A stretch of DNA of 64,000 nt. Source: Streptomyces sp. Q6. Its GTDB lineage: Bacteria > Actinomycetota > Actinomycetes > Streptomycetales > Streptomycetaceae. The translations under genes and the position numbers were made by a program. Below, in pieces: positions 11,180 through 47,130 of the stretch (position 1 is the first letter of the stretch; the number at the start of each line of letters is the position of its first letter). The notes below the pieces were generated by a model that was not told the origin of the DNA, searched no databases, and saw only the letters and a list, made by a program, of their open reading frames with translations. The stretch lies in assembly GCF_036967205.1 (NCBI RefSeq), contig NZ_CP146022.1, positions 3,720,001-3,784,000 of the forward strand. The letters run 5' to 3'.

Positions 11180-11194
11180 CTGACTATCCGTCAG
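11180..11194. promoter_or_regulatory. CTGAC-N5-GTCAG operator, site 1
   Basis: CTGACTATCCGTCAG, exact match to both half-sites. It lies in the divergent control region, 26 bp before the acyl-CoA synthetase start and 61 bp before the thiolase start. Its centre is 27 bp from site 2. Confidence 0.75.
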
Positions 11195-11206
11195 ATTAGC
11201 TGTAGC

Positions 11207-11221
11207 CTGACGCGCTGTCAG
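11207..11221. promoter_or_regulatory. CTGAC-N5-GTCAG operator, site 2
   Basis: CTGACGCGCTGTCAG, exact match. Second site in the same divergent region, 34 bp before the thiolase start codon. Confidence 0.7.
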
Positions 11222-11254
11222 CAAACGGATCCAGGTGCGCAGGTGGGGGTGCCC

Positions 11255-12403
11255 ATGACGGGACTCAAGGACGCGACGGCGATCGTCGGCATAGGCCAGA
11301 CGGCCTTCGCGAAGCAACTCCCCGAATCCGAGAAGACGTTGGCGTGCCGGGCGATCATCGCCGCGCTCGACGACGCGGGCATCGCGCCGTCCGAGGTGGA
11401 CGCGTTCGCCTCGTACACGATGGAGGAGACCGACGAGGTCGAGGTCGCGAAGTCGATCGGCGCGGGAGACGTCACGTACTTCTCCAAGGCCGGTTACGGC
11501 GGCGGCGGTTCCTGCGCGACGGTCGCGCACCTGGCCTCCGCCATCGCCACCGGTCAGGCCACCGTCGGGGTCGCCTGGCGCTCCCGCAAGCGCGGCAGCG
11601 GACCGCGTCCGTGGAAGAACACGGCGGTCCAACTCCCCACGCCCGCCCAGTGGACACGGCCCTTCGGCCTGCTGCGCCCGGCCGACGAGATCGGCATGCT
11701 GGCCCGCCGCTACATGCACGAGTACGGCGCGACCCGCGACCACCTCTTCAACGTCGCGCTCGCCTGCCGCAACCGGGCCAACCAGAACCCGGCCGCGATC
11801 ATGTACGAGCGCCCGCTGACCCGCGAGATGTACATGTCGTCCCGCTGGATCAGCGAACCGCTCTGCCTCTTCGACAACTGCCTGGAGACCGACGGGGCGC
11901 TGGCCTGCGTCGTCGTCTCCGCCGAGCGCGCCCGGGACTGCCGCCAAAAACCGGTGTACGTCCACGCCGCCGCCCAGGGCCTGCCCGCGCAGCACCACGG
12001 CATGGTCAACTACTGGAACGACGACCCGCTCACCGGACCGGCCTGGACGGCGGCCCGCCACCTGTGGAAGCACTCCGACGTCACCCCGGAGGACGTCGAC
12101 GTGGCACAGATCTACGACGCGTTCACGCCACTCATCCCGCTCTCCCTGGAGGGCTACGGGTTCTGCGGCCGCGGCGAGGGCGCCTCGTTCACGGAGGGCG
12201 GCGCCCTGGAGATCGGCGGCCGCCTCCCGATCAACACGGGCGGCGGCGGCCTCTCGGAGGCGTACGTCCACGGCTTCAACCTCATCAACGAGGGCGTGAA
12301 GCAGCTGCGGGGCGTCGGCACGGCCCAGGTGCCGGACGCCCGGACGTGCCTGGTGACGGCGGGCGAAGGCGTCCCGACGTCCGCGCTGCTCCTGACGTCA
12401 TGA
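11255..12403 (+). CDS. Thiolase-fold lipid-transfer protein / Ltp2-like aldolase candidate
   Basis: A 382-residue thiolase-superfamily protein of the SCP-x/Ltp class. It starts AIVGIGQTAFAKQLPESEKT, has the YDAFTPLIPL segment, and ends in the glycine-rich loop INTGGGGLSEAYVHGFN. Proteins of this class paired with a DUF35 partner act as retro-aldolases that cut a CoA-activated steroid side chain (Ltp2 with the ChsH2 DUF35 domain in M. tuberculosis). Here the DUF35 gene is next in the operon, so the same chemistry is likely (inference). The ATG at 11255 is preferred over a GTG at 11243 for its distance from AGGTGGGGG. First gene of a three-gene operon with two operators upstream. Confidence 0.85.
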   Translation: MTGLKDATAIVGIGQTAFAKQLPESEKTLACRAIIAALDDAGIAPSEVDAFASYTMEETDEVEVAKSIGAGDVTYFSKAGYGGGGSCATVAHLASAIATGQATVGVAWRSRKRGSGPRPWKNTAVQLPTPAQWTRPFGLLRPADEIGMLARRYMHEYGATRDHLFNVALACRNRANQNPAAIMYERPLTREMYMSSRWISEPLCLFDNCLETDGALACVVVSAERARDCRQKPVYVHAAAQGLPAQHHGMVNYWNDDPLTGPAWTAARHLWKHSDVTPEDVDVAQIYDAFTPLIPLSLEGYGFCGRGEGASFTEGGALEIGGRLPINTGGGGLSEAYVHGFNLINEGVKQLRGVGTAQVPDARTCLVTAGEGVPTSALLLTS

Positions 12404-12477
12404 GCACACGGGACACCGCGCGACCGGCCCACGACGAGCCGCACCCGACCGAGCCGCACCCGAGAAGGACGAGCCCC

Positions 12478-12933
12478 ATGGCAGACCCGACCGACCAAGC
12501 CCTCCTGACCCCCGTTCCCGACGACGACGGCGCCCCCTTCTGGGAGTACACCGCGCGCCACGAACTGCGCGTCCAGGCCTGCGCCGCCCCGGACTGCGGC
12601 GAACTGCGGTTCCCGCCCCGCCCCTGCTGCCCGCACTGCCGGTCCTTCGACTCCACCTGGCGCAGGATGAGCGGCCGCGGCCGCATCTGGTCGTACGTCG
12701 TGCCGCACCCGCCGCTCCTGCCGGCCTACGCCGCGCAGGCCCCGTACAACGCGATCGTCGTCGAACTCGCGGAGGCGCCCCGGATACGTCTCGTCGGCAA
12801 CCTCGTCAGCTCCGCCGACGCCCGCCTCGACTCCGTCGACCCCGACCGCATCCGGATCGGCGCCCGCGTCCAGGCCGTCTTCACCGAGACCGGCGGCGTC
12901 AGGGTCCCCCGCTGGGTCCTGGAGCGCCCATGA
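12478..12933 (+). CDS. DUF35 zinc-ribbon OB-fold protein
   Basis: A 151-residue acyl-CoA-associated protein. An N-terminal helical region precedes a rubredoxin-like zinc ribbon with CX4C and CX2C pairs (CAAPDC ... CPHC), followed by an OB fold (GRGRIWSYVVPHPPLLPAYA, ELAEAPRIRLVGNL). DUF35 proteins bind thiolase-fold partners and help hold CoA substrates. Two starts are possible: ATG 12478 behind GAAGGA (chosen; normal family length), or ATG 12400, which overlaps the thiolase stop as ATGA and would add 26 polar residues. Translation is coupled to the flanking genes either way. Confidence 0.88.
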   Translation: MADPTDQALLTPVPDDDGAPFWEYTARHELRVQACAAPDCGELRFPPRPCCPHCRSFDSTWRRMSGRGRIWSYVVPHPPLLPAYAAQAPYNAIVVELAEAPRIRLVGNLVSSADARLDSVDPDRIRIGARVQAVFTETGGVRVPRWVLERP

Positions 12934-13703: not shown

Positions 13704-13732
13704 CGAGGCCGGCGGAGGGGCGGGGAACGACC

Positions 13733-14326: not shown

Positions 14327-14384
14327 CACGCCGGGCACCCTACCCGCCGCGCGGTTCCGTGGAACACGGGCGGCGGGCACCGCG

Positions 14385-16741: not shown

Positions 16742-16905
16742 TTGCCTGCCACCTCCCCGTACGGGACCGGAATCCCCGGGTTTCCTGGTACACCGCACAT
16801 TCGAGCCCCCGTCAGCGTCTCACCACCGCAGCGCTACGGCGGCACGCACCCCGATTCTTCCTGTCCGGGGCTCTCGTTGCGAACCCGGGGGCACAACGGG
16901 GTGTC

Positions 16906-17885: not shown

Positions 17886-17900
17886 CTGACGGCATGACAG
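17886..17900. promoter_or_regulatory. Near-match operator overlapping the TetR start codon
   Basis: CTGACGGCATGACAG matches CTGAC-N5-GTCAG at 9 of 10 fixed bases (T to A in the right arm). The ATG of the TetR gene is inside it. This suggests autoregulation of a leaderless or short-leader transcript, but a single imperfect copy is weak evidence. Confidence 0.35.
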
Positions 17901-18541
17901 GACAAGTACGTACCGTCGACGGCCGTGTGGCCGGACGGCGTGGTCAGGCAACACGTCAGAAGCTGCTCGAATGCCTCGGCGAGATGCTCAGCTCCTCGCC
18001 CTACCGGGACGTCAAAGTCATTGATGTGGCCCGAAAGGCGGGCACTTCGCCCGCCACGTTCTACCAGTACTTCCCGGACGTCGAGGGTGCCGTCCTGGAG
18101 ATCGCCGAGCAAATGGCCACCGAGGGCGCGGGGTTGACCGATCTGGTCGCCGACCGCTCGTGGGTCGGCAAGGCCGGCTGGGCGACCGCGCAGGAACTCG
18201 TGGACGGTTTCCTGGAGTTCTGGCGCAAGAACGACGCGATCCTGCGCGTCGTCGACCTCGGTGCGGCCGAGGGCGACAAGCGGTTCTACAAGATCCGCAT
18301 GAAGATCCTGAACTCCGTGAACAACTCGCTCGCGGAAGCGGTGAAGGAGCTCCAGGACAAGGGCAAGGTCGACAAGGACGTGAGCCCGGCGGCGGTGGCC
18401 GGTTCGCTGGTCGCGATGCTCGCGGCGGTCGCCTCGCACCAGAAGGGCTTCCAGACCTGGGGCGTCAAGCAGGCCGAACTGAAGCCGAATCTGGCCCTGT
18501 TGGTGCATCTGGGCGTGACGGGAAGAAAGCCGACCAAGTAG
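17894..18541 (+). CDS. TetR-family transcriptional regulator
   Basis: A 215-residue TetR repressor-like protein. The N-terminal HTH is clear (RRGQATRQKLLECLGEMLSS, then VARKAGTSPATFYQYFPDVE). The C-terminal ligand domain is helical (ELVDGFLEFWRKNDAILRVV) and begins with a conserved GWATAQELVDG stretch. No effector can be read from it. It lies between afsK/VOC and the acyl-CoA dehydrogenase operon, converging on the latter. Because it is the only TetR in the window next to CoA-ester genes, and a near-match operator covers its start, it is my leading candidate for the repressor of the CTGAC-N5-GTCAG regulon (inference). Confidence 0.9.
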   Translation: MTGQVRTVDGRVAGRRGQATRQKLLECLGEMLSSSPYRDVKVIDVARKAGTSPATFYQYFPDVEGAVLEIAEQMATEGAGLTDLVADRSWVGKAGWATAQELVDGFLEFWRKNDAILRVVDLGAAEGDKRFYKIRMKILNSVNNSLAEAVKELQDKGKVDKDVSPAAVAGSLVAMLAAVASHQKGFQTWGVKQAELKPNLALLVHLGVTGRKPTK

Positions 18542-18619: not shown

Positions 18620-19108
18620 TTACCGACGCCGCCGCTCCAGGCAGAACAGTCTGATCTCCCGGTCGATGCGCTCCTGATACGCGGCGTACGGCGGCCAGAA
18701 CTTCAGCGCCGCCTCCCACGCGGCCTTCCGCTCCTGCCCACCGAGCAGCCGGGCCGTCACCGGGACGTCCTCGCCGCGCCAGCTGATCTCGGCGTCCGGG
18801 TGGGCCATCAGGTTCGCCGTCCAGTTCGGGTGCCCCGGCCTGCCGAAGTTCGACCCGATGAGCAGCCAGGTGCCGGTGGCGGGGTCCCCCTCGGGCATGC
18901 ACGCGAGCGGAGTACGCCGCGGCAGTCCGCTTCTCGCGCCCCGCACCGTGAGGATCACCCCCGGCAGCATCTGCGCGCTGAGCAGCACCTTTCCCCGGGT
19001 GAGGCGGTGGACGGCGCGGTCCATGGCGGGGATGACGTGCGGGGCGACGCGGGCGAAGGTCCGGGTCGACGACACCTTCTGGACGAACCGCAGTCCGGGC
19101 GGGGCCAT
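18620..19108 (-). CDS. Deazaflavin (F420)-dependent nitroreductase-family oxidoreductase
   Basis: A 162-residue split beta-barrel flavoprotein of the Ddn/DUF385 family. Conserved segments are GVILTVRGARSGLPRRTPLA, GTWLLIGSNFGRPGHPNWTANLMAHP and WRGEDVPVTARLL. Members use F420H2 to reduce nitro groups, quinones or enones. In this context a role in reducing an unsaturated cyclic intermediate is possible (inference). Its ATG overlaps the stop of the acyl-CoA dehydrogenase gene (TGATG), so it is translated as the second gene of that operon and falls under the operator at 20314. Confidence 0.88.
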   Translation of the reverse strand: MAPPGLRFVQKVSSTRTFARVAPHVIPAMDRAVHRLTRGKVLLSAQMLPGVILTVRGARSGLPRRTPLACMPEGDPATGTWLLIGSNFGRPGHPNWTANLMAHPDAEISWRGEDVPVTARLLGGQERKAAWEAALKFWPPYAAYQERIDREIRLFCLERRRR

Positions 19109-20301
19109 CAGAGAGCCGCCTCGGCCGGCGCCGCGAACAGCTCCGCCGCCTGTGCCGCCCGCGCCCGCAGCAGATGCACGGGCCCGAACAGCAGCTCGTC
19201 GCCGGCGGCCCGCTTCAGGTACAGGTGCGCGTCGTGCTCCCAGGTGAACCCGATGCCGCCGTGCAGCTGCACGGCCTCGGCGGCGGCGGTCCGCAGCGCT
19301 TCCAGGCCCTGCGCGAGCGCGAGCCCGCCAACCGCCTCCTCCTGTACGTCACTTGCGGCCCACGCGGCGTAGTACGCGGCCGAGCGCGCCGCCTGCACCT
19401 GGACGTACACGTCGGCGAGCCGGTGCTTGACCGCCTGGAAGGACCCGACGGGCCGCCCGAACTGCTCGCGCTCCTTGACGTAGGCGACGGTCCGCTCCAG
19501 GGCCCGGTCGGCGGCGCCGACGGCCTCGGTGGCGAGCAGCGTCGCGGCCCCGTTCCCCACGGCGGCGAGGGCGCCGGCCACGTCGGCGTCCTGCTCGCCC
19601 AGCAACTCGGCGCCGACGTCGCGGAGTTCGACGCGGGCCTGCGGGCGGGTCTCGTCGAGCGAGGTCTGCCGGGTGCGGACGAGCCCGGGGGCGTCCTGCC
19701 GCACCAGGAACAGCAGCGTCCGGGAGCGGGCGAAGCCGCCGGTGTGCGCGGCGACGAGCAGCAGCCCGGCGCTGTGCCCGTCGAGGACCTGCTCGGCCTG
19801 CCCGTACAGCCGCCATCCGTCGTCCTGCCGCGCGGCCTGGACGCCACCGGCCCGGCCGCCGCCCGCCCAGTCCCCCGCGTTGTCCGCGACGAGGCCGAGG
19901 GCGGTGGCGAGTCCGGTGCCGGGGACGGCGAGGGCGGCGGTCAGGGAGCCGTCGGCGATGCGCGGCAGGAGCGCCTCGCACTGCGCGCCGGTGCCGAGTG
20001 CGGCGACGAGGGGGGCCGCGAGGCCGCAGGTGGCGAGCAGCGGGCTCGGCGCGAGAACTCGCCCCAGCTCCTCTGCCACCAGGGCGAGTTCGGTGAGCGT
20101 GGCGCCCACTCCCCCGCTGCCCTCGGGCAGGGCGAGTCCCGGCAGCCCGAGCTCGCTGCCGAGCGTGCCCCACAGTTCGGGGTCGTGGCCCGCCGGGGTG
20201 CGGGTGGCGGCCCTGATGTCGTCCGGGGTACAGCGTTTGGTGGTGAGTTCGCGCAGGGTGCGGCGGATCTCCTGCTGCTCCTCGGTGAACCTGGCGTCCA
20301 T
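19108..20301 (-). CDS. Acyl-CoA dehydrogenase, FadE28-like subunit
   Basis: A 397-residue FAD-linked acyl-CoA dehydrogenase fold protein. N-terminal helices (TEEQQEIRRTLRELTTKRC), LALPEGSGGVGATLTELALV, a central beta region and the C-terminal helical bundle with KEREQFGRPVGSFQAVKHRL and QLHGGIGFTWEHDAHLYLKR are present. The last motif marks the FadE28-type (ChsE1-like) half of alpha2beta2 dehydrogenases in steroid side-chain oxidation, which need a FadE29-type partner. No partner gene is adjacent; the FadE29-like protein at 39371, under a similar operator, is a candidate (inference). The start at 20301 follows AAGGGG. Confidence 0.9.
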   Translation of the reverse strand: MDARFTEEQQEIRRTLRELTTKRCTPDDIRAATRTPAGHDPELWGTLGSELGLPGLALPEGSGGVGATLTELALVAEELGRVLAPSPLLATCGLAAPLVAALGTGAQCEALLPRIADGSLTAALAVPGTGLATALGLVADNAGDWAGGGRAGGVQAARQDDGWRLYGQAEQVLDGHSAGLLLVAAHTGGFARSRTLLFLVRQDAPGLVRTRQTSLDETRPQARVELRDVGAELLGEQDADVAGALAAVGNGAATLLATEAVGAADRALERTVAYVKEREQFGRPVGSFQAVKHRLADVYVQVQAARSAAYYAAWAASDVQEEAVGGLALAQGLEALRTAAAEAVQLHGGIGFTWEHDAHLYLKRAAGDELLFGPVHLLRARAAQAAELFAAPAEAAL

Positions 20302-20313
20302 GCGAGCCCCTTT

Positions 20314-20328
20314 CTGACGGATCGTCAT
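20314..20328. promoter_or_regulatory. CTGAC-N5-GTCAG operator, site 3
   Basis: CTGACGGATCGTCAT, one mismatch at the last base. It lies 13 bp upstream of the acyl-CoA dehydrogenase start (minus strand). Confidence 0.65.
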
Positions 20329-20387
20329 ATTAGGGCGGGCGGGTGCGAGCGGGAAGAGCCGCACGCCCCCTGCGCCGCACCCATTAT

Positions 20388-20402
20388 CTGATGTACCGTC
20401 AG
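20388..20402. promoter_or_regulatory. CTGAC-N5-GTCAG operator, site 4
   Basis: CTGATGTACCGTCAG, one mismatch (T at base 5). It ends 4 bp before the ATG of the thiolase-like gene, where a ribosome-binding site would normally be, so binding here would block the promoter or the 5' end of a leaderless mRNA. Confidence 0.7.
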
Positions 20403-20406: not shown

Positions 20407-21585
20407 ATGACTGGCAGCAGTGGATCACGCCCCAGGGTCGCCGTCGCGGGCATCGCCCTGTCCGACTGCGGACGCGTCGACGAGGCCACCCCCTACGCCC
20501 TGCACGCCCAGGCCGCCCGCCGCGCCCTCGCCGACGCCGGACTCACCCCGGACGTCGTCGACGGCTTCGCCAGCGCGGGCCTCGGCACCCTCGCCCCGGT
20601 CGAGGTCGCCGAGTACCTCGGCCTGACACCCCGCTGGGTGGACTCCACCTCGGTCGGCGGCTCGACGTGGGAGGTGATGGCGGCGCACGCGGCGGACGCC
20701 ATCGCCGCCGGTCACGCGCGCGCGGTCCTCCTCGTCTACGGTTCGACGGCCCGCGCCGACATCAAGGCGGGCCGCCGCACGTCGAACCTCTCGTTCGGCG
20801 CCCGCGGCCCCCTCCAGTTCGAGGTCCCGTACGGTCACACGCTCGTCGGCAAGTACGCGATGGCGGCCCGCCGTCACATGCACGCGTACGGCACCACGCT
20901 CGAACAGCTCGCCCAGGTGGCCGTCCAGGCGCGGCAGAACGCCTCCCGCAACCCCGACGCGATGTTCCGCGACCCGATCACCGTCGACGACGTCCTGTCG
21001 GGCCCGATGATCGCCGACCCGTTCACGAAACTGCACTGCTGCATCCGCTCCGACGGCGGCGCGGCCGTGCTGCTCGTGGCCGAGGACCTGCTGCCCGACT
21101 GCGCCACGTCGCCGGTGTGGGTGCTCGGTTCGGGCGAGTACGTCTCGCACACGACCATGTCCGAGTGGGACGACTTCACGGTCTCCCCGGCGGCGGTCAG
21201 CGGCCGGCTCGCCTTCGAGCGGGCCGGTGTCACCCCGGCCGACATCGACATCGCGGAGATCTACGACGCCTTCACGTACATGACGCTGGTGACCCTGGAG
21301 GACCTCGGGTTCTGCGCGAAGGGCGAGGGCGGCGCGTTCGTCGAGAAGGGCCGGCTGCGCTGGGACGGCGACCTGCCGACGAACACCGACGGCGGCGGAC
21401 TCTCGGCCCAGCACCCGGGCATGCGGGGCCTGTTCCTCCTCGTGGAGGCGGTACGGCAACTGCGCGGCGAGGCGGACGGGCACCAGGTGCGACGACCGGA
21501 CGGCACCCTGCCCCGGCTGGCCGTGGCCTCCGGCACGGGCGGCTGGTTCTGCTCGGCGGGGACGGTGGTCCTGGGCCGCGAGTAG
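20407..21585 (+). CDS. Thiolase-fold lipid-transfer-like protein
   Basis: A 392-residue thiolase-superfamily protein of the Ltp class, paralogous to the one at 11255. It begins PRVAVAGIALSDCGRVDEAT, contains IYDAFTYMTLVTLEDLGFC and ends in the loop LPTNTDGGGLSAQHPGM. The usual thiolase nucleophile region reads VGGSTWEVMA, without Cys, which argues against ordinary thiolysis and for an aldolase-type role with a DUF35 partner. The only unpaired DUF35 gene in the window is at 26988. Only seven bases separate a possible end of the operator's right arm from the ATG and no Shine-Dalgarno is visible, so a leaderless mRNA is likely. Confidence 0.85.
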   Translation: MTGSSGSRPRVAVAGIALSDCGRVDEATPYALHAQAARRALADAGLTPDVVDGFASAGLGTLAPVEVAEYLGLTPRWVDSTSVGGSTWEVMAAHAADAIAAGHARAVLLVYGSTARADIKAGRRTSNLSFGARGPLQFEVPYGHTLVGKYAMAARRHMHAYGTTLEQLAQVAVQARQNASRNPDAMFRDPITVDDVLSGPMIADPFTKLHCCIRSDGGAAVLLVAEDLLPDCATSPVWVLGSGEYVSHTTMSEWDDFTVSPAAVSGRLAFERAGVTPADIDIAEIYDAFTYMTLVTLEDLGFCAKGEGGAFVEKGRLRWDGDLPTNTDGGGLSAQHPGMRGLFLLVEAVRQLRGEADGHQVRRPDGTLPRLAVASGTGGWFCSAGTVVLGRE

Positions 21586-26987: not shown

Positions 26988-27440
26988 TCATCCGCCCGTG
27001 CCGCCGTCGCGCCCGGCCGGCCGGAACACGGGCACGGTGAAGCCGTCCTGCCCGTCGCCCCTGAACGCGACGACGAGGTCCATGCCCACCCGCAGGTCCG
27101 CCGCCGCGCACTCCACGACCTCCGTCATCATCCGCGGCCCCTCGGCGAGGTCGACGACGGCGGCGACGTACGGGGTGCGGGTGCCGAAGGGCGGCAGGTC
27201 GTTGCGGTGCACGACGGACCAGGTGTAGAGCGTGGCCCGCCCGCTCGCGGGCCGCCACGACACGACGTCGGGGGCATCGCTCCAGCAGAACGGGCAGAAC
27301 TCGCGCGGATAGTGGTGGTACCGGTCGCACGCCGCGCAGTGCCGGAGGATCAGCCGCCCCTCGGCGGCCGCGTCCCAGTACGGGCGGGTGAACGCGTCGG
27401 GCTCGGGGACGTCGAACCGTACCCGCGAGGTCGCGGCCAT
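26988..27440 (-). CDS. DUF35 zinc-ribbon OB-fold protein
   Basis: A 150-residue protein of the same family as the one at 12478. The zinc ribbon has HCAACDRYHHYPREFCPFC (CX2C and CX2C), followed by the OB fold GRATLYTWSVVHRNDLPPFG and TPYVAAVVDLAEGPRMMTEV. It is the second gene of an operon with the DoxX-like protein; the start overlaps the previous stop as TGATG. No thiolase-fold gene adjoins it, so it may pair in trans with the Ltp-like protein from 20407, which carries the same operator (inference). Confidence 0.9.
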   Translation of the reverse strand: MAATSRVRFDVPEPDAFTRPYWDAAAEGRLILRHCAACDRYHHYPREFCPFCWSDAPDVVSWRPASGRATLYTWSVVHRNDLPPFGTRTPYVAAVVDLAEGPRMMTEVVECAAADLRVGMDLVVAFRGDGQDGFTVPVFRPAGRDGGTGG

Positions 27441-27889
27441 CAGAACAGTCCGATCGCGTGGTCGAGGGACCAGGTCTGCCAGGACATGGCGAACAGCGCG
27501 ACGAGCGAGACGAGGCCCATCATCGCGTTCTGCCCCTGCTCGGCCCAGTCATGGATCATGAGCGTGAAGTAGAGAAGGTTCAGGAGCAGCCCGCCGACGA
27601 GTGCGATCGGGGTCAGGAATCCGACCACCAGGCCGAGCCCCAGGGCGAGTTCGGCGTACACGACGACGTACGCCATCGTCTTCGGCCGCGGCCTGACGAC
27701 GGTGTCGAACCCGCTCCGCACGGCGTTCCACCGGTGCTTGGCGGCCACGTCCGCGGCCCACGCGATCCCGGTGCCGCGCTCGAACCAGCCCTTCTTGTCC
27801 TTGTGCCGCCAGCTCTCCAGCCACCACAGGCCGAGGCCGATGCGCAGCACGGCCAGCCATTCGGCGCCACCGAGACCTATCGCGTCCAT
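27440..27889 (-). CDS. DoxX-family membrane protein
   Basis: A 149-residue integral membrane protein with four predicted helices: LGGAEWLAVLRIGLGLWWLE, TMAYVVVYAELALGLGLVVG, PIALVGGLLLNLLYFTLMIH and ALFAMSWQTWSLDHAIGL. An N-terminal charged loop (SWRHKDKKGWFERGTG) is typical of DoxX / thiosulfate-quinone-oxidoreductase large subunits. Its role beside CoA-ester enzymes is unclear; it could pass electrons to quinones. It is the first gene of a two-gene operon with a perfect CTGAC-N5-GTCAG operator 26 bp upstream of its start. Confidence 0.85.
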   Translation of the reverse strand: MDAIGLGGAEWLAVLRIGLGLWWLESWRHKDKKGWFERGTGIAWAADVAAKHRWNAVRSGFDTVVRPRPKTMAYVVVYAELALGLGLVVGFLTPIALVGGLLLNLLYFTLMIHDWAEQGQNAMMGLVSLVALFAMSWQTWSLDHAIGLF

Positions 27890-27914: not shown

Positions 27915-27929
27915 CTGACGGTACGTCAG
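27915..27929. promoter_or_regulatory. CTGAC-N5-GTCAG operator, site 5
   Basis: CTGACGGTACGTCAG, exact match and symmetric across all 15 bases except the centre. It lies 26 bp upstream of the DoxX-DUF35 operon. Confidence 0.75.
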
Positions 27930-30959: not shown

Positions 30960-30974
30960 CTGACGGAGCGTCAG
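30960..30974. promoter_or_regulatory. CTGAC-N5-GTCAG operator, site 6
   Basis: CTGACGGAGCGTCAG, exact match. First of two sites 24 bp apart (centre to centre) upstream of the ADP-forming acyl-CoA synthetase. Confidence 0.75.
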
Positions 30975-30983: not shown

Positions 30984-30998
30984 CTGACAGTGCGTCAG
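30984..30998. promoter_or_regulatory. CTGAC-N5-GTCAG operator, site 7
   Basis: CTGACAGTGCGTCAG, exact match. It lies 88 bp before the preferred start at 31087 and 10 bp before the less likely ATG at 31009. Confidence 0.75.
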
Positions 30999-31086
30999 CT
31001 ACGGATTCATGGGCTCCAGGAGCATCCAGCAGGCCTCCGGAAGCCTCAGGAACTGTTCCCACTGTCACACAGGAGCGGGCGGACCG

Positions 31087-33504: not shown

Positions 33505-34299
33505 ATGACCCCGCCTCCCGAGATCCTGCACACCACCGAGAACGCCGTCTCCCGGATCACCCTCAACCGGCCCGAGGCGATGAACGCCCTCACCCCTCCC
33601 CAGCGCGACCACCTGATCACCCTCCTGGAAGCCGCCTCCGCGGACCCCGAGATCCGCGCCGTCGTCGTCACCGGCACCGGCAAGGGCTTCTGCGCGGGCG
33701 CGGACCTGCGCGGCGCCCCACCCGCCGGGCGCCCCGTGGTCGGCGACATCTCCCGGACGATCCGGCGCGGCGCCCAGCGCCTCGTTGCCGCCGTCCTGGA
33801 CTGCGAGAAGCCGGTGATCGCCGCGGTGAACGGCACGGCCGCCGGGATCGGCGCGCACCTCGCCCTCGCCTGCGACCTGGTCGTCGCGGCGGAGTCGGCC
33901 CGCTTCATCGAGGTGTTCGTACGGCGCGGTCTCGTCCCCGACGGCGGCGGCGCCTACCTCCTGCCCCGGCTGATCGGCCCGCACCGCGCGAAGGAGCTGA
34001 TGTTCTTCGGCGACGCCCTCGGCGCGGCCGACGCGGAACGCCTCGGCCTGGTCAACCGGGTCGTCCCGGACGGCGAGCTGGCGAAGACGGCGAGCGACTG
34101 GGCCGAGCGCCTCGCGTCCGGGCCGACCCGCGCCCTGGCGCTCACCAAGCAGTTGGTGAACGCGTCCCTGGACAGCGACCGGGCGACGGCGTTCGCGGCG
34201 GAGGCCACCGCCCAGGAGCTCAACATGACGACCCGCGACGCGAACGAGGGAGTCGCCTCCTTCGTGGAGCGCAGGCATCCGGAGTTCGAGGGCCGCTGA
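33505..34299 (+). CDS. Enoyl-CoA hydratase/isomerase family protein
   Basis: A 264-residue crotonase-fold enzyme with VSRITLNRPEAMNALTPPQR, the oxyanion motif TGKGFCAGADLRGAPPAGRP and AAVNGTAAGIGAHLALACDL. The catalytic region is FIEVFVRRGLVPDGGGAYLL, with Asp in the PDGG position rather than the paired Glu of classical hydratases; this pattern is typical of PaaG/PaaF-like and isomerase-type members. It probably acts on an unsaturated cyclic or branched acyl-CoA in the local pathway (inference). The start follows GGAGCC. It is separated from the synthetase by the palindromic repeat, so it likely has its own promoter. Confidence 0.9.
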   Translation: MTPPPEILHTTENAVSRITLNRPEAMNALTPPQRDHLITLLEAASADPEIRAVVVTGTGKGFCAGADLRGAPPAGRPVVGDISRTIRRGAQRLVAAVLDCEKPVIAAVNGTAAGIGAHLALACDLVVAAESARFIEVFVRRGLVPDGGGAYLLPRLIGPHRAKELMFFGDALGAADAERLGLVNRVVPDGELAKTASDWAERLASGPTRALALTKQLVNASLDSDRATAFAAEATAQELNMTTRDANEGVASFVERRHPEFEGR

Positions 34300-34344: not shown

Positions 34345-34359
34345 CTGACGCTCCGTCAG
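34345..34359. promoter_or_regulatory. CTGAC-N5-GTCAG operator, site 8
   Basis: CTGACGCTCCGTCAG, exact match. It lies 17 bp upstream of the flavin reductase start and 45 bp after the crotonase stop. Confidence 0.75.
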
Positions 34360-34376
34360 CTTCACTGAGGAACATG

Positions 34377-34994
34377 ATGGGACACGCAGGGATGGCGGCC
34401 ACCGTCGTCCGGTACCTCAAGTCGGTCGGCGCCCCCACCACGGCCGGGCCCGTGGACATGCTGCCCCGGCCCGCTCTGCGCGCGGTCCGCGACGACGAGC
34501 GGGCGCCCGTCGACCCGGCCGAGTTCCGGCGCGTCCTCGGCAGCTTCGCCACCGGCGTCACCGTCATCACGGCCCCGGGCCCCGAGCCGGGCGACCCGCC
34601 CGCCGGCTTCGCCTGCCAGTCCTTCGCGTCCCTGTCGCTCGACCCGCCGCTGGTCGCCTTCATGGTCGCGCGTACGTCGACGACCTGGCCGCGGATCGCC
34701 CGCGCGGGCGTCTTCTGCGTGAACGTACTGGGCGCGGACCAGGGCGAGTTGTGCCGCGCGTTCGCGATCAGCGGCGCCGACAAGTTCGCGGGCGTCTCCT
34801 ACGACGAGGCTCCCGTCTCGGGGTCGCCCCGGCTGGACGGCGCCGCCGCGTGGGTCGACTGCGCGGTCCACGCCGTGCACACCGGCGGCGACCACCTGAT
34901 CGTGGTCGGGCGGGTGACCGCGCTCGGCACCGCCCCGACCGACACCGGCCCGCTCCTCTTCCACCGGGGCCGCTTCGGCCGTCTCACGGACTAG
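34377..34994 (+). CDS. Flavin reductase-family protein, HsaB-like
   Basis: A 205-residue split-barrel flavin reductase. Typical segments are FRRVLGSFATGVTVITAPGP, GFACQSFASLSLDPPLVAFM and GVFCVNVLGADQGELCRAFA, with the C-terminal DCAVHAVHTGGDHLIVVGRV and LLFHRGRFGRL. These enzymes supply reduced FMN or FAD to a two-component monooxygenase, for example HsaB for HsaA in steroid ring cleavage. No monooxygenase partner of the HsaA type is in the window. Two adjacent ATGs (34374, 34377) are possible; the second has better spacing from GAGG. It converges on, and overlaps by 11 bp, the MFS gene. Confidence 0.88.
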   Translation: MGHAGMAATVVRYLKSVGAPTTAGPVDMLPRPALRAVRDDERAPVDPAEFRRVLGSFATGVTVITAPGPEPGDPPAGFACQSFASLSLDPPLVAFMVARTSTTWPRIARAGVFCVNVLGADQGELCRAFAISGADKFAGVSYDEAPVSGSPRLDGAAAWVDCAVHAVHTGGDHLIVVGRVTALGTAPTDTGPLLFHRGRFGRLTD

Positions 34995-38324: not shown

Positions 38325-39374
38325 TCAGAACGTCAGCACCCCCCGCGCCACCCGCCCCGCCTCCGCGTCCTCGACCGCCTTGCCGAACTCCTCCACGGGA
38401 TACGTCCGCGTCACCAGCTCGTCCAGGAGCAGCCGGCCCCGCGCGTACAGATCGGCATACAGCTTGATGTCGCGCTGCGGTCGCGACGAGCCGTACCGGC
38501 AGCCGAGCACCGACTTGTCCAGGAAGAGCTGGGCCGGCACGAACGACGCCTCCGCGTCGGCCGCGGGCATCCCGAGCAGCACCGCCTGCCCGTGCCGGTC
38601 GAGCAGGTCGATCGCGGCCCGCACGAGCTCGACCCGCCCCACGCACTCGAAGACGTGGTCGGCCCCCTCGGGCAGCACGCCGCGCACCTCGCCGACGTCC
38701 GTGAGGAACTCGGTCGCCCCGAACCGCCGCGCCACCTCCTCCTTCGCCGGGTTCGCGTCGACGGCGACGATCTTCAACGCCCCCGCGATCCGGGCCCCTT
38801 GGAGCACGTTGAGGCCGACGCCGCCGGTGCCGATGACGACGACGGAGTCACCCCGGTCGACCCGCGCCCGGTTCAGCACGGCGCCGACGCCCGTCAGGAC
38901 GCCGCAGCCGATCAGCGCGGCCGATGTCAGCGGCAGCTCCTTCGGGATCTTCACCGCCTGGACGGCCTTCACGACGGTGCGCTCGGCGAACGCCGAGTTC
39001 GACGCGAACTGGTAGACGGGGTCGCCGCCGCGCGAGAACGGCTGCCCCGGCATCCCGATCGCCTTGCGGCACATGGTCGGCCGGCCCCGGTCGCACTCCG
39101 CGCAGGCCCCGCAGTTGGCGAGGGTGGACAGCGAGACGTGGTCGCCGGGCACCACATGGCTCACGCCGGCGCCGACCTCCTCCACCACACCGGCGCCCTC
39201 GTGCCCGAGCACCACGGGCCGCGGGAACGGGATCGTCCCGTCGATCACCGACAGGTCGCTGTGGCACAGACCGGCCGCCGCGACCGAGACGAGCACCTCC
39301 CCCGGGCCCGGCTCACGTATCTCCAAGTCATCGACCACGACGGCCTGTTGACCGTCGAAGAGAACACCCCTCAC
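38325..39374 (-). CDS. Zinc-dependent medium-chain alcohol dehydrogenase
   Basis: A 349-residue MDR dehydrogenase. The catalytic zinc ligands are in GLCHSDLS and LGHEGAGVVEEV plus a later Cys in GCGVLTG; the structural zinc has four Cys in NCGACAECDRGRPTMC. The NAD Rossmann motif is VIGTGGVGLNVLQGARIAG. It resembles the FadB4/AdhD-type or formaldehyde-dehydrogenase-like branch that uses large alcohols. The start is GTG 39374, which overlaps the previous stop (GTGA) behind GGGAGG. It is the last gene of the SDR-FadE-ADH operon and may oxidise a pathway alcohol. Confidence 0.9.
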   Translation of the reverse strand: MRGVLFDGQQAVVVDDLEIREPGPGEVLVSVAAAGLCHSDLSVIDGTIPFPRPVVLGHEGAGVVEEVGAGVSHVVPGDHVSLSTLANCGACAECDRGRPTMCRKAIGMPGQPFSRGGDPVYQFASNSAFAERTVVKAVQAVKIPKELPLTSAALIGCGVLTGVGAVLNRARVDRGDSVVVIGTGGVGLNVLQGARIAGALKIVAVDANPAKEEVARRFGATEFLTDVGEVRGVLPEGADHVFECVGRVELVRAAIDLLDRHGQAVLLGMPAADAEASFVPAQLFLDKSVLGCRYGSSRPQRDIKLYADLYARGRLLLDELVTRTYPVEEFGKAVEDAEAGRVARGVLTF

Positions 39375-40585
39375 GACGACGCCTCCCTCGGCTGATCCTT
39401 CGGCTGGTCCTTCGGAAGACCGAGCACGCGCTCGGCGATGATGGTGCGCTGGATCTCGTCCGAGCCGCCGTAGACGGTGTCGGCCCGGCTGAACAGGAAC
39501 AGCCGCTGCTGTTCGTCGAGTTCGTACGGAGCGTCGGCCGTCCAGTCGCCGGGCCCGACGGCCGCCGCGGGCCCGCGCACCCGCAGCGCCAGCTCGCCGA
39601 GCCGCTGGTGCCAGCCGCCCCAGAGCAGCTTGGCGACGCTCGGCGCCCCGGCGTCCGGCGCGCCGCCGAGGGTGCGCAGCGCGTTCCACCGCATGGTCCG
39701 CAGCTCGGCCCAGAGCCGTACGATCCGGTCCGCGATCACCGGATCGCGCACCGCCCCCGATCCGACGGCGGCCCGCACGACGGCCCGCAGTTCCTCCTCG
39801 AACCCGATCTGCTGGGCGAGCGTCGACACGCCGCGCTCGAAGGCGAGCAGCCCCATGGCGACCCGCCATCCGTTGCCCTCGCCGCCGACGACGCCCACCG
39901 CGCGGGCCCCGTCGAAGAAGACCTCGTTGAACTCGCTGGTCCCGGTCAGCTGCCGGATCGGCCGTACGTCGACGCGCCCCGGCTGGTCCATGGGCACCAG
40001 CAGGAACGACAGGCCGTGGTGGCGGCGCGAGCCGGGTTCGGTGCGCGCGAGCACGAAGCACCAGTCGGCCTCGTGCGCGAGCGACGTCCACACCTTCTGC
40101 CCGGTGACCCGCCAGTGCCCGTCGCCGTCCCGCTCGGCGGCCGTGCGCAGCGAGGCGAGGTCGGACCCGGCGCCGGGCTCGCTGTACCCCTGGCACCACA
40201 ACTCCTCGCCGCGCGCGATCGGCGGCAGGAAGCGGCGCCGCTGCTCCTCGTCCCCGTACGCGAGCAGGGTCGGGGCCAGCAGGTTCTCGCCGATGTGCCC
40301 GGAGCGGCCCGGCGCCCTGACCCGCGCGTACTCCTCGGCCCAGACGACCTGCTGGGTGAGCGTGGCGACCCGGTTGCCGTAGCCGGCCCGGCCCCAGCCG
40401 AGTCCGATCCAGCCGCCCTCGCCCAACTCCCGCTCCCAGGCGCGCCGTTCCGCCGTGCCCTCGTGCTCGCTGCCCGGTCCGCCGCGCCCCACGGCGCCCG
40501 CGAACCGCCCGACGAGATGTTTCTCCAGCCACTCCCGCGCCTCGCGCCGGAAGACCTCGTCGTCCTCCCCGAAACCGAACTCCAC
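39371..40585 (-). CDS. Acyl-CoA dehydrogenase, FadE29-like subunit
   Basis: A 404-residue acyl-CoA dehydrogenase. FAD-binding beta-domain residues are in LWCQGYSEPGAGSDLASLRT and HWRVTGQKVWTSLAHEADWC; the C-terminal region is DTVYGGSDEIQRTIIAERVL. The canonical catalytic Glu of MCAD (YEG before the QIQ segment) is replaced by Gly, as in heteromeric steroid dehydrogenases where the base comes from another position or subunit. No FadE28-like gene adjoins it; the one at 19108 is a possible partner (inference). Middle gene of the SDR-FadE-ADH operon, 13 bp after the SDR gene. Confidence 0.92.
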   Translation of the reverse strand: MEFGFGEDDEVFRREAREWLEKHLVGRFAGAVGRGGPGSEHEGTAERRAWERELGEGGWIGLGWGRAGYGNRVATLTQQVVWAEEYARVRAPGRSGHIGENLLAPTLLAYGDEEQRRRFLPPIARGEELWCQGYSEPGAGSDLASLRTAAERDGDGHWRVTGQKVWTSLAHEADWCFVLARTEPGSRRHHGLSFLLVPMDQPGRVDVRPIRQLTGTSEFNEVFFDGARAVGVVGGEGNGWRVAMGLLAFERGVSTLAQQIGFEEELRAVVRAAVGSGAVRDPVIADRIVRLWAELRTMRWNALRTLGGAPDAGAPSVAKLLWGGWHQRLGELALRVRGPAAAVGPGDWTADAPYELDEQQRLFLFSRADTVYGGSDEIQRTIIAERVLGLPKDQPKDQPREASS

Positions 40586-40598: not shown

Positions 40599-41513
40599 TC
40601 AGCCGTTGGGTCGTTCCTTGGCCGCGGCGGCCCGTGCCATCTCCTCCAGGCGTGCCAGCATCGGCATGGGGTCGGTCCCGACGGTCCCCGGCAGGAAGTC
40701 CGCGATCCGCTCCGGCGTCCAGGCCCCGCCCTCCGCGTACCCGGCGCGCAGTTCGCGCGGCTGCGCCCAGACGGCGATCTTCGGTCCGGCCACCGTGTAG
40801 ACCTGCCCGGTGATCTTCTCGTCGCGGGCCCGCTCGCTGAGCAGGTAGACGACGAGCGCGGCGACGTCCTCGGGCTCCCCGATCTCCTTGAGCTCCATCG
40901 GCACGTTGGCCGACATCCGCGTACGGGCGACGGGCGCCACGGCGTTGGCCGTCACCCCGTACTTGTGCAGTCCGAGGGCGGCGCTGCGCACCAGCGAGAT
41001 GATGCCGCCCTTGGCCGCGCTGTAGTTGGCCTGCGCGACGGACCCCTGGTGATTCCCGCTGGTGAACCCGATCAGGGTGCCGGTGCCCTGCTTGCGCATG
41101 ACGGCGGACGCGGCCCGGAACACGGTGAACGTGCCCTTCAGATGGGTGGCGACGACCGGGTCCCACTCGTCCTCGGACATGTTGAACAGCATCCGCTCAC
41201 GCAGGATCCCGGCGACGCACACCACCCCGTCGAGCCGCCCGAACTCGCCGACGGCGGTGTCCACGACGCGCTGCCCGCCCGCCATGGTGGACACGTCGTC
41301 GGCGACGGCGACCGCGCTGCCGCCCGCGGCCTCGATCTCCTTGACGACGCCGAGCGCCACGTCGGAGGTGGGCTCGCCGCCCTCGATGGACACCCCGTAG
41401 TCGTTGACGACGACCTTCGCGCCCTCGGCGGCGCACGCGAGCGCCACCGCGCGGCCTATGCCGCGCCCCGCCCCCGTCACGGCGACGACCTTGCCTGCCA
41501 AGAAGTTCCCCAC
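40599..41513 (-). CDS. Short-chain dehydrogenase, MFE-2-like hydroxyacyl-CoA dehydrogenase
   Basis: A 304-residue SDR. The NAD motif is VVAVTGAGRGIGRAVALACA, the acidic residue after beta-2 is in VVVNDYGVSIEG, catalytic Ser lies in LIGFTSGNHQG and Tyr-Lys in ANYSAAKGGIISLVRS. The GVSIEGGEPTSDVALGVVKE insertion is typical of the peroxisomal multifunctional-enzyme type 2 (hydroxyacyl-CoA dehydrogenase) branch. In a beta-oxidation pathway it would oxidise the 3-hydroxyacyl-CoA. First gene of a three-gene operon, divergent from the cyclase gene, with operator sites in the shared 101-bp region. Confidence 0.92.
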   Translation of the reverse strand: MGNFLAGKVVAVTGAGRGIGRAVALACAAEGAKVVVNDYGVSIEGGEPTSDVALGVVKEIEAAGGSAVAVADDVSTMAGGQRVVDTAVGEFGRLDGVVCVAGILRERMLFNMSEDEWDPVVATHLKGTFTVFRAASAVMRKQGTGTLIGFTSGNHQGSVAQANYSAAKGGIISLVRSAALGLHKYGVTANAVAPVARTRMSANVPMELKEIGEPEDVAALVVYLLSERARDEKITGQVYTVAGPKIAVWAQPRELRAGYAEGGAWTPERIADFLPGTVGTDPMPMLARLEEMARAAAAKERPNG

Positions 41514-41535: not shown

Positions 41536-41550
41536 CTGACGACCCGTTAG
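41536..41550. promoter_or_regulatory. CTGAC-N5-GTCAG operator, site 9
   Basis: CTGACGACCCGTTAG, one mismatch (C to T in the right arm). It lies 22 bp before the SDR start and 64 bp before the cyclase start. Confidence 0.65.
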
Positions 41551-41569: not shown

Positions 41570-41584
41570 TCTACGACCCGTCAG
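41570..41584. promoter_or_regulatory. Degenerate partner site 10 (intact right half)
   Basis: TCTACGACCCGTCAG retains the right half-site and ACGACC core of site 9 but has a degenerate left arm. Centre spacing from site 9 is 34 bp. It lies 30 bp before the cyclase start. Confidence 0.4.
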
Positions 41585-41614: not shown

Positions 41615-42541
41615 ATGCCCCTGCCCGCCGAGTTCCATGACATCGCCAAACGCGTGAACAACTGGGGGCGTTGGGGGGACGCCGACGAGATCGGCACCCT
41701 GAACCTGGTCACCGACGAGGTCGTGCGCGCGGCCGCCGGAGAGGTCCGCACGGGCCGCCGGGTCCCGCTGGCGCTGCCCCTGAAGGAGGACGGCGTCCAG
41801 TCCGGCATGATCCCGGGCCGGGTCAATCCGCTGCACACCATGGTCCAGATCAACCAGGAGATCTTCGGCCCGGGGACGGTGGCCTGCAGCGACGACGCCG
41901 TGACGATGGGGCTCCAGGCCGCCACCCACTGGGACGCGCTCACCCACGTCTCGCACTCTGGCCGGCTCTACAACGGCCGCCCGGCGTCAACCATCACGGC
42001 GCACGGCGGCTCGGAGTTCAGCGGCATCGACAAGGCCCCGTACATCGTCTCGCGCGGCGTCCTGCTCGACGTGGCGGCGGCCAAGGGCCTCGACCGGCTC
42101 CCCGGCGACCACGCCGTCACCCCCGAAGACCTGGACGAGGCGGCCGAGTTCGGGCGGGTGGAGGTGCGGGCGGGCGACATCGTCCTGGTCCGCACCGGAC
42201 AGGTGCAGGTGTACCTGGCGGGCGACAAGCACGCGTACGGCTATCCGTCCCCGGGCCTGTCGGTCCGTACGCCGGAGTGGTTCCACGCCCACGACGTGGC
42301 GGCCGTCGCCAACGACACCCTGACCTTCGAGATCTTCCCGCCGGAGATCGAGGATCTGTGGCTGCCGGTGCACGCCCTCGACCTGGTGGAGATGGGCATG
42401 CTCCAGGGCCAGAACTGGAATCTCGAATCCCTGTCCACAGCCTGTGGACAGGAGTCGCGCTATTCCTTCCTGCTCTCGGCGATGCCCGAGCCCTTCCAGG
42501 GGGCCACGGGCACCCCGGTCGCGCCGGTGGCGATCCTGTAG
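41615..42541 (+). CDS. Cyclase-family (kynurenine formamidase-like) metal hydrolase
   Basis: A 308-residue hydrolase of the cyclase family (PF04199 fold). The metal-binding signature is THWDALTHVSH (residues 104-114), the family HxxDxxxH motif. YIVSRGVLLDVAAAKGLDRL and VEVRAGDIVLVRTGQ are typical of the core. Members cleave formamides, isatin or alicyclic amides and esters; in actinobacterial catabolic clusters they may open rings. The start follows GGGAGGA. It is controlled from the divergent region with sites 9 and 10. A 21-bp perfect palindrome with DnaA-box-like halves lies inside the coding sequence at 42431-42451. Confidence 0.9.
   Translation: MPLPAEFHDIAKRVNNWGRWGDADEIGTLNLVTDEVVRAAAGEVRTGRRVPLALPLKEDGVQSGMIPGRVNPLHTMVQINQEIFGPGTVACSDDAVTMGLQAATHWDALTHVSHSGRLYNGRPASTITAHGGSEFSGIDKAPYIVSRGVLLDVAAAKGLDRLPGDHAVTPEDLDEAAEFGRVEVRAGDIVLVRTGQVQVYLAGDKHAYGYPSPGLSVRTPEWFHAHDVAAVANDTLTFEIFPPEIEDLWLPVHALDLVEMGMLQGQNWNLESLSTACGQESRYSFLLSAMPEPFQGATGTPVAPVAIL
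42431..42451. repeat. Intragenic 21-bp palindrome with paired DnaA-box-like halves
   Basis: CTGTCCACAG-C-CTGTGGACAG is a perfect 10+1+10 palindrome. Each half contains TGTCCACA, one base short of the Streptomyces DnaA box TTGTCCACA. It lies in the 3' part of the cyclase gene. Confidence 0.7.
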
Positions 42542-43354: not shown

Positions 43355-43420
43355 CGCTCACACCATCCGAACCGGCGGACACATCGCCTCGCGCCACTGA
43401 CCATGCTGGCCACTGAAGAG

Positions 43421-43785: not shown

Positions 43786-43786
43786 G

Positions 43787-44644: not shown

Positions 44645-44646
44645 GC

Positions 44647-45807: not shown

Positions 45808-45818
45808 GGACGGCGGCC

Positions 45819-47012
45819 CTACCGGTCCAGGTCGAGATCGAGCATGCGGATGGCGTTGCCGCGCATCAGCTTGTAGACCGTCTCGTCGTCGAGCCCCTTC
45901 ACGTGGTCGAGCGCGACCTCCTTGGTGTTCGGGAACGTCGAGTCGACGTGCGGGTAGTCGGTCTCGAAGGTGGCGTTGTCCCGCCCGACGACGTCGAGGG
46001 ACGCGATCCCGTGCTTGTCGCGGAAGAAGCAGCAGAACATCTGCCGGTAGTAGTACGTGGACGGCGGCTCGGGGATCAGATCGCGCACGCCGCCCCAGGC
46101 GCGGTGCTCCTGCCACACGTCGTCGGCGCGCTCCAGGGCGTACGGGATCCACCCCATCTGCCCCTCGCTGTAGGCGAGTTTGAGCGTCGGGAACTTCACG
46201 AGCACGCCGCTGAACAGGAAGTCCATCATCGAGGCCATGGCGTTGTTGAAGCTGAGCGAGGCCTGGACGGCGGGCGGCGCGTCGGGGGAGGCGGCGGGCA
46301 TCTGGGAGCTGCTGCCGATGTGCATGTTGACGACGGTCCCGGTCTCCTGGCACACAGCGAAGAACGGGTCCCAGTACCCGGAGTGGATCGACGGGAGTCC
46401 GAGGTAGGTGGGGATCTCCGAGAAGGTGACGGCCCGCACGCCGCGGGCGGCGTTGCGCCGGATCTCGGCGACGGCGAGGTCGATGTCCCACAGCGGGATG
46501 ATGCACAGCGGGATCAGCCGCCCGCCGCTGTCCCCGCACCACTCCTCGACCATCCAGTCGTTGTACGCGCGCACGCAGGCCAGGGCGACCTCCTTGTCGT
46601 GCGCCTCGGCGAAGGTCTGCCCGCAGAAGCGCGGGAAGGTCGGGAAGCAGAGGCTGGCCTCGACGTGGTTGAGGTCCATGTCGTCGAGCCGCGCCTTGGG
46701 GTCCCAGCAGCCGCGCCGCATCTCGGCGCGGGTGATGCCCTCCAGGGTCATGTCGTCCCGGTCGAAGCCGACGGCGGCGATGTTGCGCTTGTACGGGAAC
46801 TTCAGGTCCTCGTAGATCCACCAGTCGGTCGGTGGCCCGTCCGGGTCCATGGTGATCTGGTATTTCCCCGCCACGTAGGCGAGTTCACCGATTCCCGCGG
46901 TGAGCGGTCGCGGGCCGCGCTCGCGGTACTTGGCGGGCAGCCAGGTCTCGAAGAGATGGGCCGGTTCGATCACGTGGTCGTCGACGCTGACGATGCGCGG
47001 CAGTTCCGTCAT
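45819..47012 (-). CDS. Amidohydrolase-family TIM-barrel protein
   Basis: A 397-residue metal-dependent hydrolase or decarboxylase of the amidohydrolase_2 (ACMSD-like) group. It starts with VSVDDHVIEPAHLFETWLP, where the first metal motif is D-D-H rather than HxH, has a barrel His in TGTVVNMHIGSSS and the final Asp in ATFETDYPHVDSTFPN. These proteins are frequent in actinobacterial steroid and aromatic gene sets, where their reactions are largely unknown. It is first in an operon with the two acyl-CoA dehydrogenase subunits and carries an operator 25 bp upstream. The ribosome site is GAGGGG. Confidence 0.9.
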   Translation of the reverse strand: MTELPRIVSVDDHVIEPAHLFETWLPAKYRERGPRPLTAGIGELAYVAGKYQITMDPDGPPTDWWIYEDLKFPYKRNIAAVGFDRDDMTLEGITRAEMRRGCWDPKARLDDMDLNHVEASLCFPTFPRFCGQTFAEAHDKEVALACVRAYNDWMVEEWCGDSGGRLIPLCIIPLWDIDLAVAEIRRNAARGVRAVTFSEIPTYLGLPSIHSGYWDPFFAVCQETGTVVNMHIGSSSQMPAASPDAPPAVQASLSFNNAMASMMDFLFSGVLVKFPTLKLAYSEGQMGWIPYALERADDVWQEHRAWGGVRDLIPEPPSTYYYRQMFCCFFRDKHGIASLDVVGRDNATFETDYPHVDSTFPNTKEVALDHVKGLDDETVYKLMRGNAIRMLDLDLDR

Positions 47013-47037
47013 GAATACCCCTCAGGACTACTGAGAT

Positions 47038-47052
47038 CTGATGACCCGTCAG
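47038..47052. promoter_or_regulatory. CTGAC-N5-GTCAG operator, site 11
   Basis: CTGATGACCCGTCAG, one mismatch (T at base 5). It lies 25 bp upstream of the amidohydrolase operon. Confidence 0.7.
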
Positions 47053-47115
47053 ATTCCAGGCTAGCCGCGCACCTCTGGACCGACAAGAAGTGCGGGCTTA
47101 CGCTCTGAGCCACAT

Positions 47116-47130
47116 CTGACTACCCGTCAG
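47116..47130. promoter_or_regulatory. CTGAC-N5-GTCAG operator, site 12
   Basis: CTGACTACCCGTCAG, exact match. It lies 44 bp upstream of the CoA-ligase gene. Confidence 0.75.

Follow-up and report, generated by a model that had tools for sequence, protein, structure and literature searches.

We analysed a 64,000-nucleotide stretch of the Streptomyces sp. Q6 genome (G000:C1:3720001-3784000, hereafter the window; genome of 8.95 Mb, G+C 73%) in which a palindrome, CTGAC-N5-GTCAG, recurs in front of genes for the metabolism of coenzyme A (CoA) esters, and which also encodes a TetR-family regulator at 17894-18541. The original prediction, made from the sequence alone, had listed seven exact copies of the palindrome, four copies with one mismatch and, separately, a site at 17886, and all of these were recovered (Table 1). 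An extra one-mismatch match not listed at that time was found at 26784, within a PNPOx-like gene (26188-26853), and is probably due to chance. In total, 13 places with at most one mismatch were counted, 12 of them intergenic or over a start codon (17886) and one intragenic.

These figures were compared with a Markov null having the dinucleotide content of the window (60 runs). Exact copies were expected 0.13 times (maximum 1) and observed 7 times, and places with at most one mismatch were expected 2.8 times (maximum 7) and observed 13 times. When two mismatches were allowed, no excess was found in the window (31 observed and 41.4 expected), so that only close matches carry meaning. As for the genes behind the sites, the statement that every site precedes a CoA-ester gene or one of its accessories holds in the window for all the promoter sites except 17886, which is TetR's own; genome-wide it describes only a trend, and since many weaker matches precede unrelated genes it has to be limited to the window.

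Table 1. Candidate operators and genes of the window. Genes were called with a GC3-based script and their starts are approximate.
Feature	Position	Strand	Context	Support
FadD3-family acyl-CoA ligase	9574..11169	-		NF005801, 810 bits (cut-off 657)
Candidate operator 1	11180..11194		divergent fadD3/ltp promoters	exact; matrix 22.4 bits
Candidate operator 2	11207..11221		27 bp from operator 1	exact; not among the matrix matches listed
Lipid-transfer-protein-type thiolase	11243..12403	+		NF005892, 584 bits (cut-off 469)
Degenerate candidate operator	17886..17900		spans TetR start codon; autoregulation predicted	
TetR-family regulator, proposed repressor	17894..18541	+		TetR_N and TetR_C_38 (PF19352)
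Acyl-CoA dehydrogenase, IpdE2/PimD-like	19108..20364	-	start may be 20301	under model cut-offs
Candidate operator	20314..20328		divergent acyl-CoA dehydrogenase/thiolase	one mismatch; motif match and matrix
Candidate operator	20388..20402		divergent acyl-CoA dehydrogenase/thiolase	one mismatch; motif match and matrix
Thiolase-like protein	20407..21585	+		
DUF35/ChsH2-type OB-fold protein	26988..27440	-		
149-amino-acid (149-aa) protein	27440..27889	-	first of gene pair	no Pfam/NCBIfam match at thresholds used
Candidate operator	27915..27929		between 149-aa/DUF35 gene pair and flavin monooxygenase gene	exact; motif match and matrix
Flavin monooxygenase-like protein	28087..29256	+		
Candidate operator	30960..30974		acyl-CoA synthetase (ADP-forming type)	exact; motif match and matrix
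Candidate operator	30984..30998		24 bp from 30960	exact; matrix 19.0 bits
ADP-forming-type acyl-CoA synthetase	31009..33309	+		
Enoyl-CoA hydratase	33505..34299	+	downstream of synthetase	
Candidate operator	34345..34359		flavin reductase	exact; motif match and matrix
Flavin reductase, HsaB-like	34374..34994	+		under cut-off
Acyl-CoA dehydrogenase, PimC-like	39371..40585	-	behind SDR	under cut-off
SDR oxidoreductase	40599..41513	-		
Candidate operator	41536..41550		divergent SDR/cyclase	one mismatch; motif match and matrix
Weak operator-like site	41570..41584		broken left half; 34 bp from 41536; absent from the original prediction	13.6 bits
Cyclase-family hydrolase	41615..42541	+		PF04199
Amidohydrolase	45819..47012	-	closest solved relatives named DitZ, PtmU3	PF04909
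Candidate operator	47038..47052		divergent amidohydrolase/AMP-ligase	one mismatch; matrix 29.9 bits
Candidate operator	47116..47130		divergent amidohydrolase/AMP-ligase	exact; motif match and matrix
AMP-binding acyl-CoA ligase	47175..48707	+		

The TetR protein and the conservation of the sites

The window TetR carries an N-terminal TetR_N helix-turn-helix (HTH) domain (PF00440, 26.5 bits; cut-off 24) and a C-terminal PF19352 domain (244 bits), and is the one PF19352 protein of its genome. Its predicted structure is helical, with a predicted local distance difference test (pLDDT) of 82 (60-67 for the other four models), and shows the TetR fold when compared with solved structures; FasR, SaFadR and DesT are among the fold neighbours, a list that does not exclude the families absent from it. 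Of 14 aligned homologues, 11 have an intact SPATFYQYF stretch, which belongs to the predicted recognition helix, and a homologue was found in 395/395 genomes of the window's family, although G361 (76% complete) matched at 2e-35 only. Two genes from TetR lies afsK, recognised by a kinase domain (15638-16798) followed by a PQQ-repeat frame. This gene (14385-16798, minus strand) looks split, the kinase and PQQ-repeat parts being in different frames with the change near 15600, as a result of either a sequencing error or a real frameshift.

The sites were searched in other Streptomyces, as the original prediction had proposed, using the best 80 of 571 TetR loci, all from closely related members of the genus (1.30 Mb). 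Sites with at most one mismatch did lie upstream of orthologous genes: they were present in the orthologous gap in 63/63 acd/thiolase and 46/46 fadD3/ltp loci passing the filters, and within 200 bp upstream of the 149-aa gene in 40/40. Exact sites in the 80 loci were 50 in intergenic and 0 in coding sequence, and eight rearranged or re-spaced patterns occurred 0 or 1 time each. The spacing between neighbouring sites was 27 bp in 44 cases, at fadD3/ltp, and either 24 or 25 bp in 13, at the synthetase, with spacings of 33, 47 and 59 bp observed once each. The flanks around these sites drift (mean majority frequency 0.53-0.62), whereas those of the site at the TetR start reach 0.97. Measuring the conservation of the half-sites would be circular, because the sites were picked by half-site, and we relied instead on the counts in orthologous gaps.

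More distant lineages were represented by 20 stretches from four genomes assigned by label to the same phylum (G025, G134, G284 and G294), compared with a reference set of 39 proteins of the own genome that comprises the regulon genes and some operon neighbours. Among the distant genes with an upstream site (at most one mismatch), 30/35 resembled the reference set, compared with 52/169 of the others (Fisher p 3e-9). The closest counterparts were amidohydrolases (54-68% identity) and an Amidohydro_3 protein (59-67%), FadD3-like ligases (36-57%) and PimC-like dehydrogenases (36-55%). In distant homologues, a site was also observed upstream of the aligned TetR start, exact in L045 (72 bp) and with one mismatch in L047 (77 bp) and L049 (23 bp); by the L045 and L049 sites, TetR itself carries an upstream site in two of the four distant genomes. 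In the 28 exact distant sites, the flanks were AT at 75% and the spacer was RNY.

A matrix derived from 30 distant sites was then used to score 0.70 Mb of the own genome, most of it taken from around matches to the motif. It gave 21 sites of at least 20 bits, all intergenic and nine of them in the window. CoA-ester, redox (flavin, F420, SDR, P450) or amidohydrolase genes follow 19 of the 21, a count that includes one DUF35-like gene in L056 with a thiolase behind it. Of the remaining two, one lies close to the end of contig C2 and the other precedes the gene of an unknown protein without a PDB match (L208). The flanks and spacer in the matrix put several exact copies lacking CoA genes (L057, L060, L063, L065, L066 and L067) under 15 bits.

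Genome-wide occurrence of the palindrome

The aligned sites gave the profile AT-CTGACG-RNY-CGTCAG-AT, of about 19 bp, which replaces the 15 bp given in the original prediction. In the whole genome, its 12-base form, CTGACGNNNCGTCAG, has 19 exact copies (reversed control 0) and 132 matches with at most one mismatch (control 18), while a looser, one-sided form, CTGAYNNNNCGTCAK, gave 96 strand hits at 77 places, compared with 3 strand hits for the control. Of these places 76 were counted, one being dropped since its surroundings duplicate another. The same site and surroundings seemingly occur twice, once on the chromosome and once on the second contig (L191 and L225; G000:C1:878600 and C2:48102), which suggests a duplicated or mobile segment.

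The places were assigned in stretches fetched around the sites, counting as intergenic also 60 bp inside the gene ends, so that the chance level is 30% and not 20%. The proposed genome scan did reveal a promoter bias (61/76 places intergenic and 15/76 intragenic; p 2e-19), but weaker sites were also found before unrelated genes. According to Pfam, the 61 site-adjacent genes include five luciferase-like oxidoreductases, four thiolases, three AMP-ligases, three acyl-CoA dehydrogenases, two amidohydrolases and two aldehyde dehydrogenases. None of these six enzyme families was among the 25 commonest, out of 163 families, listed for 117 control genes, a list that leaves room for single control matches to CoA families; three of the 120 genes sampled had been removed from the control as they belong to the 41536 promoter.

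Several strong sites outside the window have similar surroundings. The site at 4186645 heads a row of acyl-CoA dehydrogenase, MaoC/DUF35 and acyl-CoA dehydrogenase genes, and that at 2570455 heads a lipid-transfer thiolase, which itself comes after two genes, one for an acyl-CoA dehydrogenase and one for a CoA-transferase. The description of the genes as split over four blocks 38 kb apart thus has to be widened, given that sites and targets are found genome-wide and that a second island with strong sites is present at about 4.76-4.79 Mb (4764278-4788966), whose amidohydrolase is 57% identical to that of the window. Some exact copies look unrelated: two are intragenic or at a gene edge, and others precede an ABC transporter, a gene for a fasciclin-domain protein and an HTH/EPSP-synthase-like gene. 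The last of these encodes a fusion of HTH and EPSP-synthase-like domains (L065:4077-5606), with the exact palindrome 81 bp upstream. A perfect, high-scoring palindrome with no called gene behind it was also observed on the 385-kb contig, about 170 bp from its end (L068:10410, G000:C2:385410), and could be part of a linear-plasmid end instead of an operator.

Regulator, mode of regulation and possible substrates

To link the sites with a regulator, TetR homologues (E up to 1e-20) and exact sites were counted in 296 Actinomycetota genomes. The 20 TetR-positive genomes contained 178 sites (mean 8.9) and the 276 TetR-negative ones 85 (mean 0.31), with a rank test p of 4e-20 in a statistic that ignores relatedness; at least four sites were present in 16/20 positive and 5/276 negative genomes. 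Outside Streptomyces, 11 positive genomes had 61 exact sites, with at least four in 7/11. G064 (three sites), which is 62% complete and congeneric with the TetR-positive G052, was counted among the negatives. On the basis of four separate tests, namely co-occurrence, orthologous sites, homologous targets in distant genomes and the cross-lineage matrix, we consider it likely that the palindrome is the operator of the TetR encoded at 17894-18541, which would control scattered CoA-ester catabolic genes. The same tests support the earlier claims of a dispersed operator, of a TetR regulator encoded at 17894 and of a catabolic regulon, repression itself being predicted. The regulator of the sites is very probably the window TetR.

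Some observations weigh against this assignment. Compared with the 12-base form, the site at the start of TetR shows two mismatches, and because the sequence around it is just as conserved, its own conservation is confounded; the G246 TetR locus (L042) has no such site even with up to two mismatches allowed. The sole acs locus passing the ortholog filter has no site with at most one mismatch. The 61 site-adjacent genes also include four ABC transporters, which are found among the control genes as well (3/117), three GNATs and a MreB, and the core of the matrix is fixed by the choice of the training sites, so that its independent parts are only flanks, spacer and gene context. Moreover, G050, G016, G040 and G102 are TetR-positive (38-47% identity) yet have 0-2 sites, and five TetR-negative genomes (G100, G061, G078, G162 and G214) have at least four sites and no PF19352 protein.

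These five genomes could point to another regulator as owner of the site, for instance a CRP-type protein, whose half-site is similar, or one of the other TetR proteins, which exceed 100 in some Streptomyces according to the accessible part of PMC3742746. We regard this as quite improbable, since in distant genomes, too, the TetR gene has a site a short way upstream. Out of the 24 sites of the five TetR-negative genomes, 15 were inspected, 13 of them without a gene start within 300 bp, six intragenic and none with AT on both flanks, whereas 26/28 exact sites of the TetR-positive distant genomes, and only 2/15 of these, had a gene start within 300 bp. A PF19352 protein was looked for and not found in eight TetR-negative genomes that have several sites; with TetR as query, four of them gave only weak matches (best E from 2e-13 to 1e-6) and the other four none at 1e-5. 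The Streptomyces CRP site is GTGAC-N6-GTCAC, with TGAC-N6-GTCA spacing, and this spacing was rejected, as the version of our motif with one extra spacer base (N6) occurs 0 times in the 1.30 Mb compared with 50 for the actual motif.

In G162, copies of CTGACGGTTCGTCAG were observed with near-identical flanks and no called gene start nearby (L236 and L246); they are probably a repeated palindromic element unrelated to the window TetR. As two of the three copies inspected in G162 share such flanks, one could ask whether the palindromes in general are chance occurrences or a repeated hairpin element. The probability of this is close to negligible: the flanks drift around conserved sites, the gene context recurs in distant genomes, and the null controls (reversed controls of 0 and 18, Markov null of 0.13) led us to reject chance. 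For the window sites, the counts in orthologous gaps and the cross-lineage matrix argue against it as well.

The position of the sites bears on the mode of regulation. Sites lie at a median of 36 bp from the start codon in the own genome and 38.5 bp in the distant ones, a closeness that fits repression, and -10-like hexamers overlap the site in 10/68 site-gene pairs compared with 3.6% of control windows, which suits occlusion. TetR-family activators and dual regulators are described in the accessible part of PMC12093943, and for a few sites the nearest called start is about 95-220 bp downstream, as could be the case if TetR bound the site but mainly activated, or had a dual role, with the catabolic genes needing it. 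Given the promoter overlaps and the fact that 21/26 distant exact sites with a called gene are within 65 bp of the start codon, we find such a role unlikely.

In the repressor model, a TetR dimer would bind AT-CTGACG-RNY-CGTCAG-AT at the promoters of the scattered genes, with repression presumably relieved by an inducer, and would probably be bound also at its own start codon, in an autoregulatory loop. The steps controlled would be the activation of acids by CoA ligases and the dehydrogenation (acyl-CoA dehydrogenases), hydration (MaoC/DUF35) and thiolysis (lipid-transfer thiolases) of acyl-CoA esters, together with flavin- or F420-dependent redox reactions.

The site-linked enzymes are similar to enzymes that act on alicyclic CoA esters. 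The FadD3-family ligase, the Ltp thiolase, the IpdE2-like and HsaB-like proteins and the dehydrogenase - MaoC/DUF35 - dehydrogenase row behind 4186645 could even indicate a steroid-degradation regulon of the classical type, like those of KstR and KstR2. This is highly improbable in our opinion. No KshA_C match (E up to 0.001) was found in the genome and all HsaA matches were under the cut-off (best 175 bits, cut-off 450) in a ring-gene search that covered these two only; the operator profile is unlike TnnAACnnGTTnnA and AnCAAGnnCTTGnT, given for KstR and KstR2 in the original prediction, which upholds the statement made there that the motif is neither; and the steroid pathway is absent from 55/57 Streptomyces genomes, as far as the accessible part of PMC4810484 goes, yet the TetR homologue is present throughout the family. 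The steroid pathway was thus rejected as the principal explanation. DitZ and PtmU3, the nearest solved relatives of the amidohydrolase, are presumably linked to diterpenoids; for DitZ, the open-access literature yielded no paper that could be connected with the enzyme. Since KshA was not found, HsaA was under the cut-off and Streptomyces mostly lack the steroid pathway, our guess is a terpenoid-like acid, within a substrate class of alicyclic terpenoid- or steroid-like acids.

Comparison with known systems

In S. coelicolor, SCO4421 is described as a TetR regulator close to afsK, sporulation-induced and lower in a whiA mutant, whose deletion gave no detected phenotype (accessible part of PMC3878966). 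The window TetR belongs to the same family and has the same position near afsK, and by synteny it is very likely the ortholog. The regulon had been called unrecognised, a term that does not suit the TetR locus, which is not unstudied because the apparent counterpart SCO4421 has already been deleted and examined for sporulation. In the open-access literature, with most subscription papers outside the search, we found neither a regulon or operator for the SCO4421 TetR nor the motif strings as written, and none of four motif fragments occurs in PMC2276206. The six locus tags SCO4417-SCO4422 turned up in one paper, and the accessible part of PMC3878966 names neither an operator or regulon nor a ligand for SCO4421. 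We presume that SAV3818 may be the S. avermitilis counterpart.

A tentative and rather doubtful extension is that this is an ancient actinobacterial regulon apart from KstR/KstR2, for the breakdown of polycyclic isoprenoid acids (e.g., CoA esters derived from diterpenoids or hopanoids), and that in Streptomyces this regulon might be tied to sporulation through whiA-dependent expression of the repressor, so that developing spores would change their isoprenoid/lipid turnover. In any case, a regulator with no assigned job gains a testable one, with a likely operator and a target list. Some 20 promoters, all of genes for poorly known enzymes (CoA-ester, F420 and amidohydrolase), would be grouped in one programme, which helps in finding the substrate. 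Since distant actinobacteria have the site as well, with related targets, an experiment on a single member would be informative for many genomes.

KstR and KstR2 are also TetR repressors with scattered palindromes before CoA-ester catabolic genes, in part of related families. They differ in the operator, and the system described here differs also in the ring genes, with KshA not found and HsaA under the cut-off, and in having its TetR homologue in every family genome searched. EthR of Mycobacterium tuberculosis acts mainly on a single target, ethA, and its operator is different; it is 18-21% identical to the window TetR, with similarity over residues 16-78 only, which speaks against orthology. 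The acyl-CoA-linked regulators FasR, SaFadR and DesT are 12-16% identical. Finally, Sco4385 is likewise a TetR regulator beside CoA ligase and enoyl-CoA hydratase genes, in the same chromosomal region by locus number, but its gene lies among sco4383-4386 and not beside afsK (SCO4423), and it has a 23-bp consensus (accessible part of PMC12093943).

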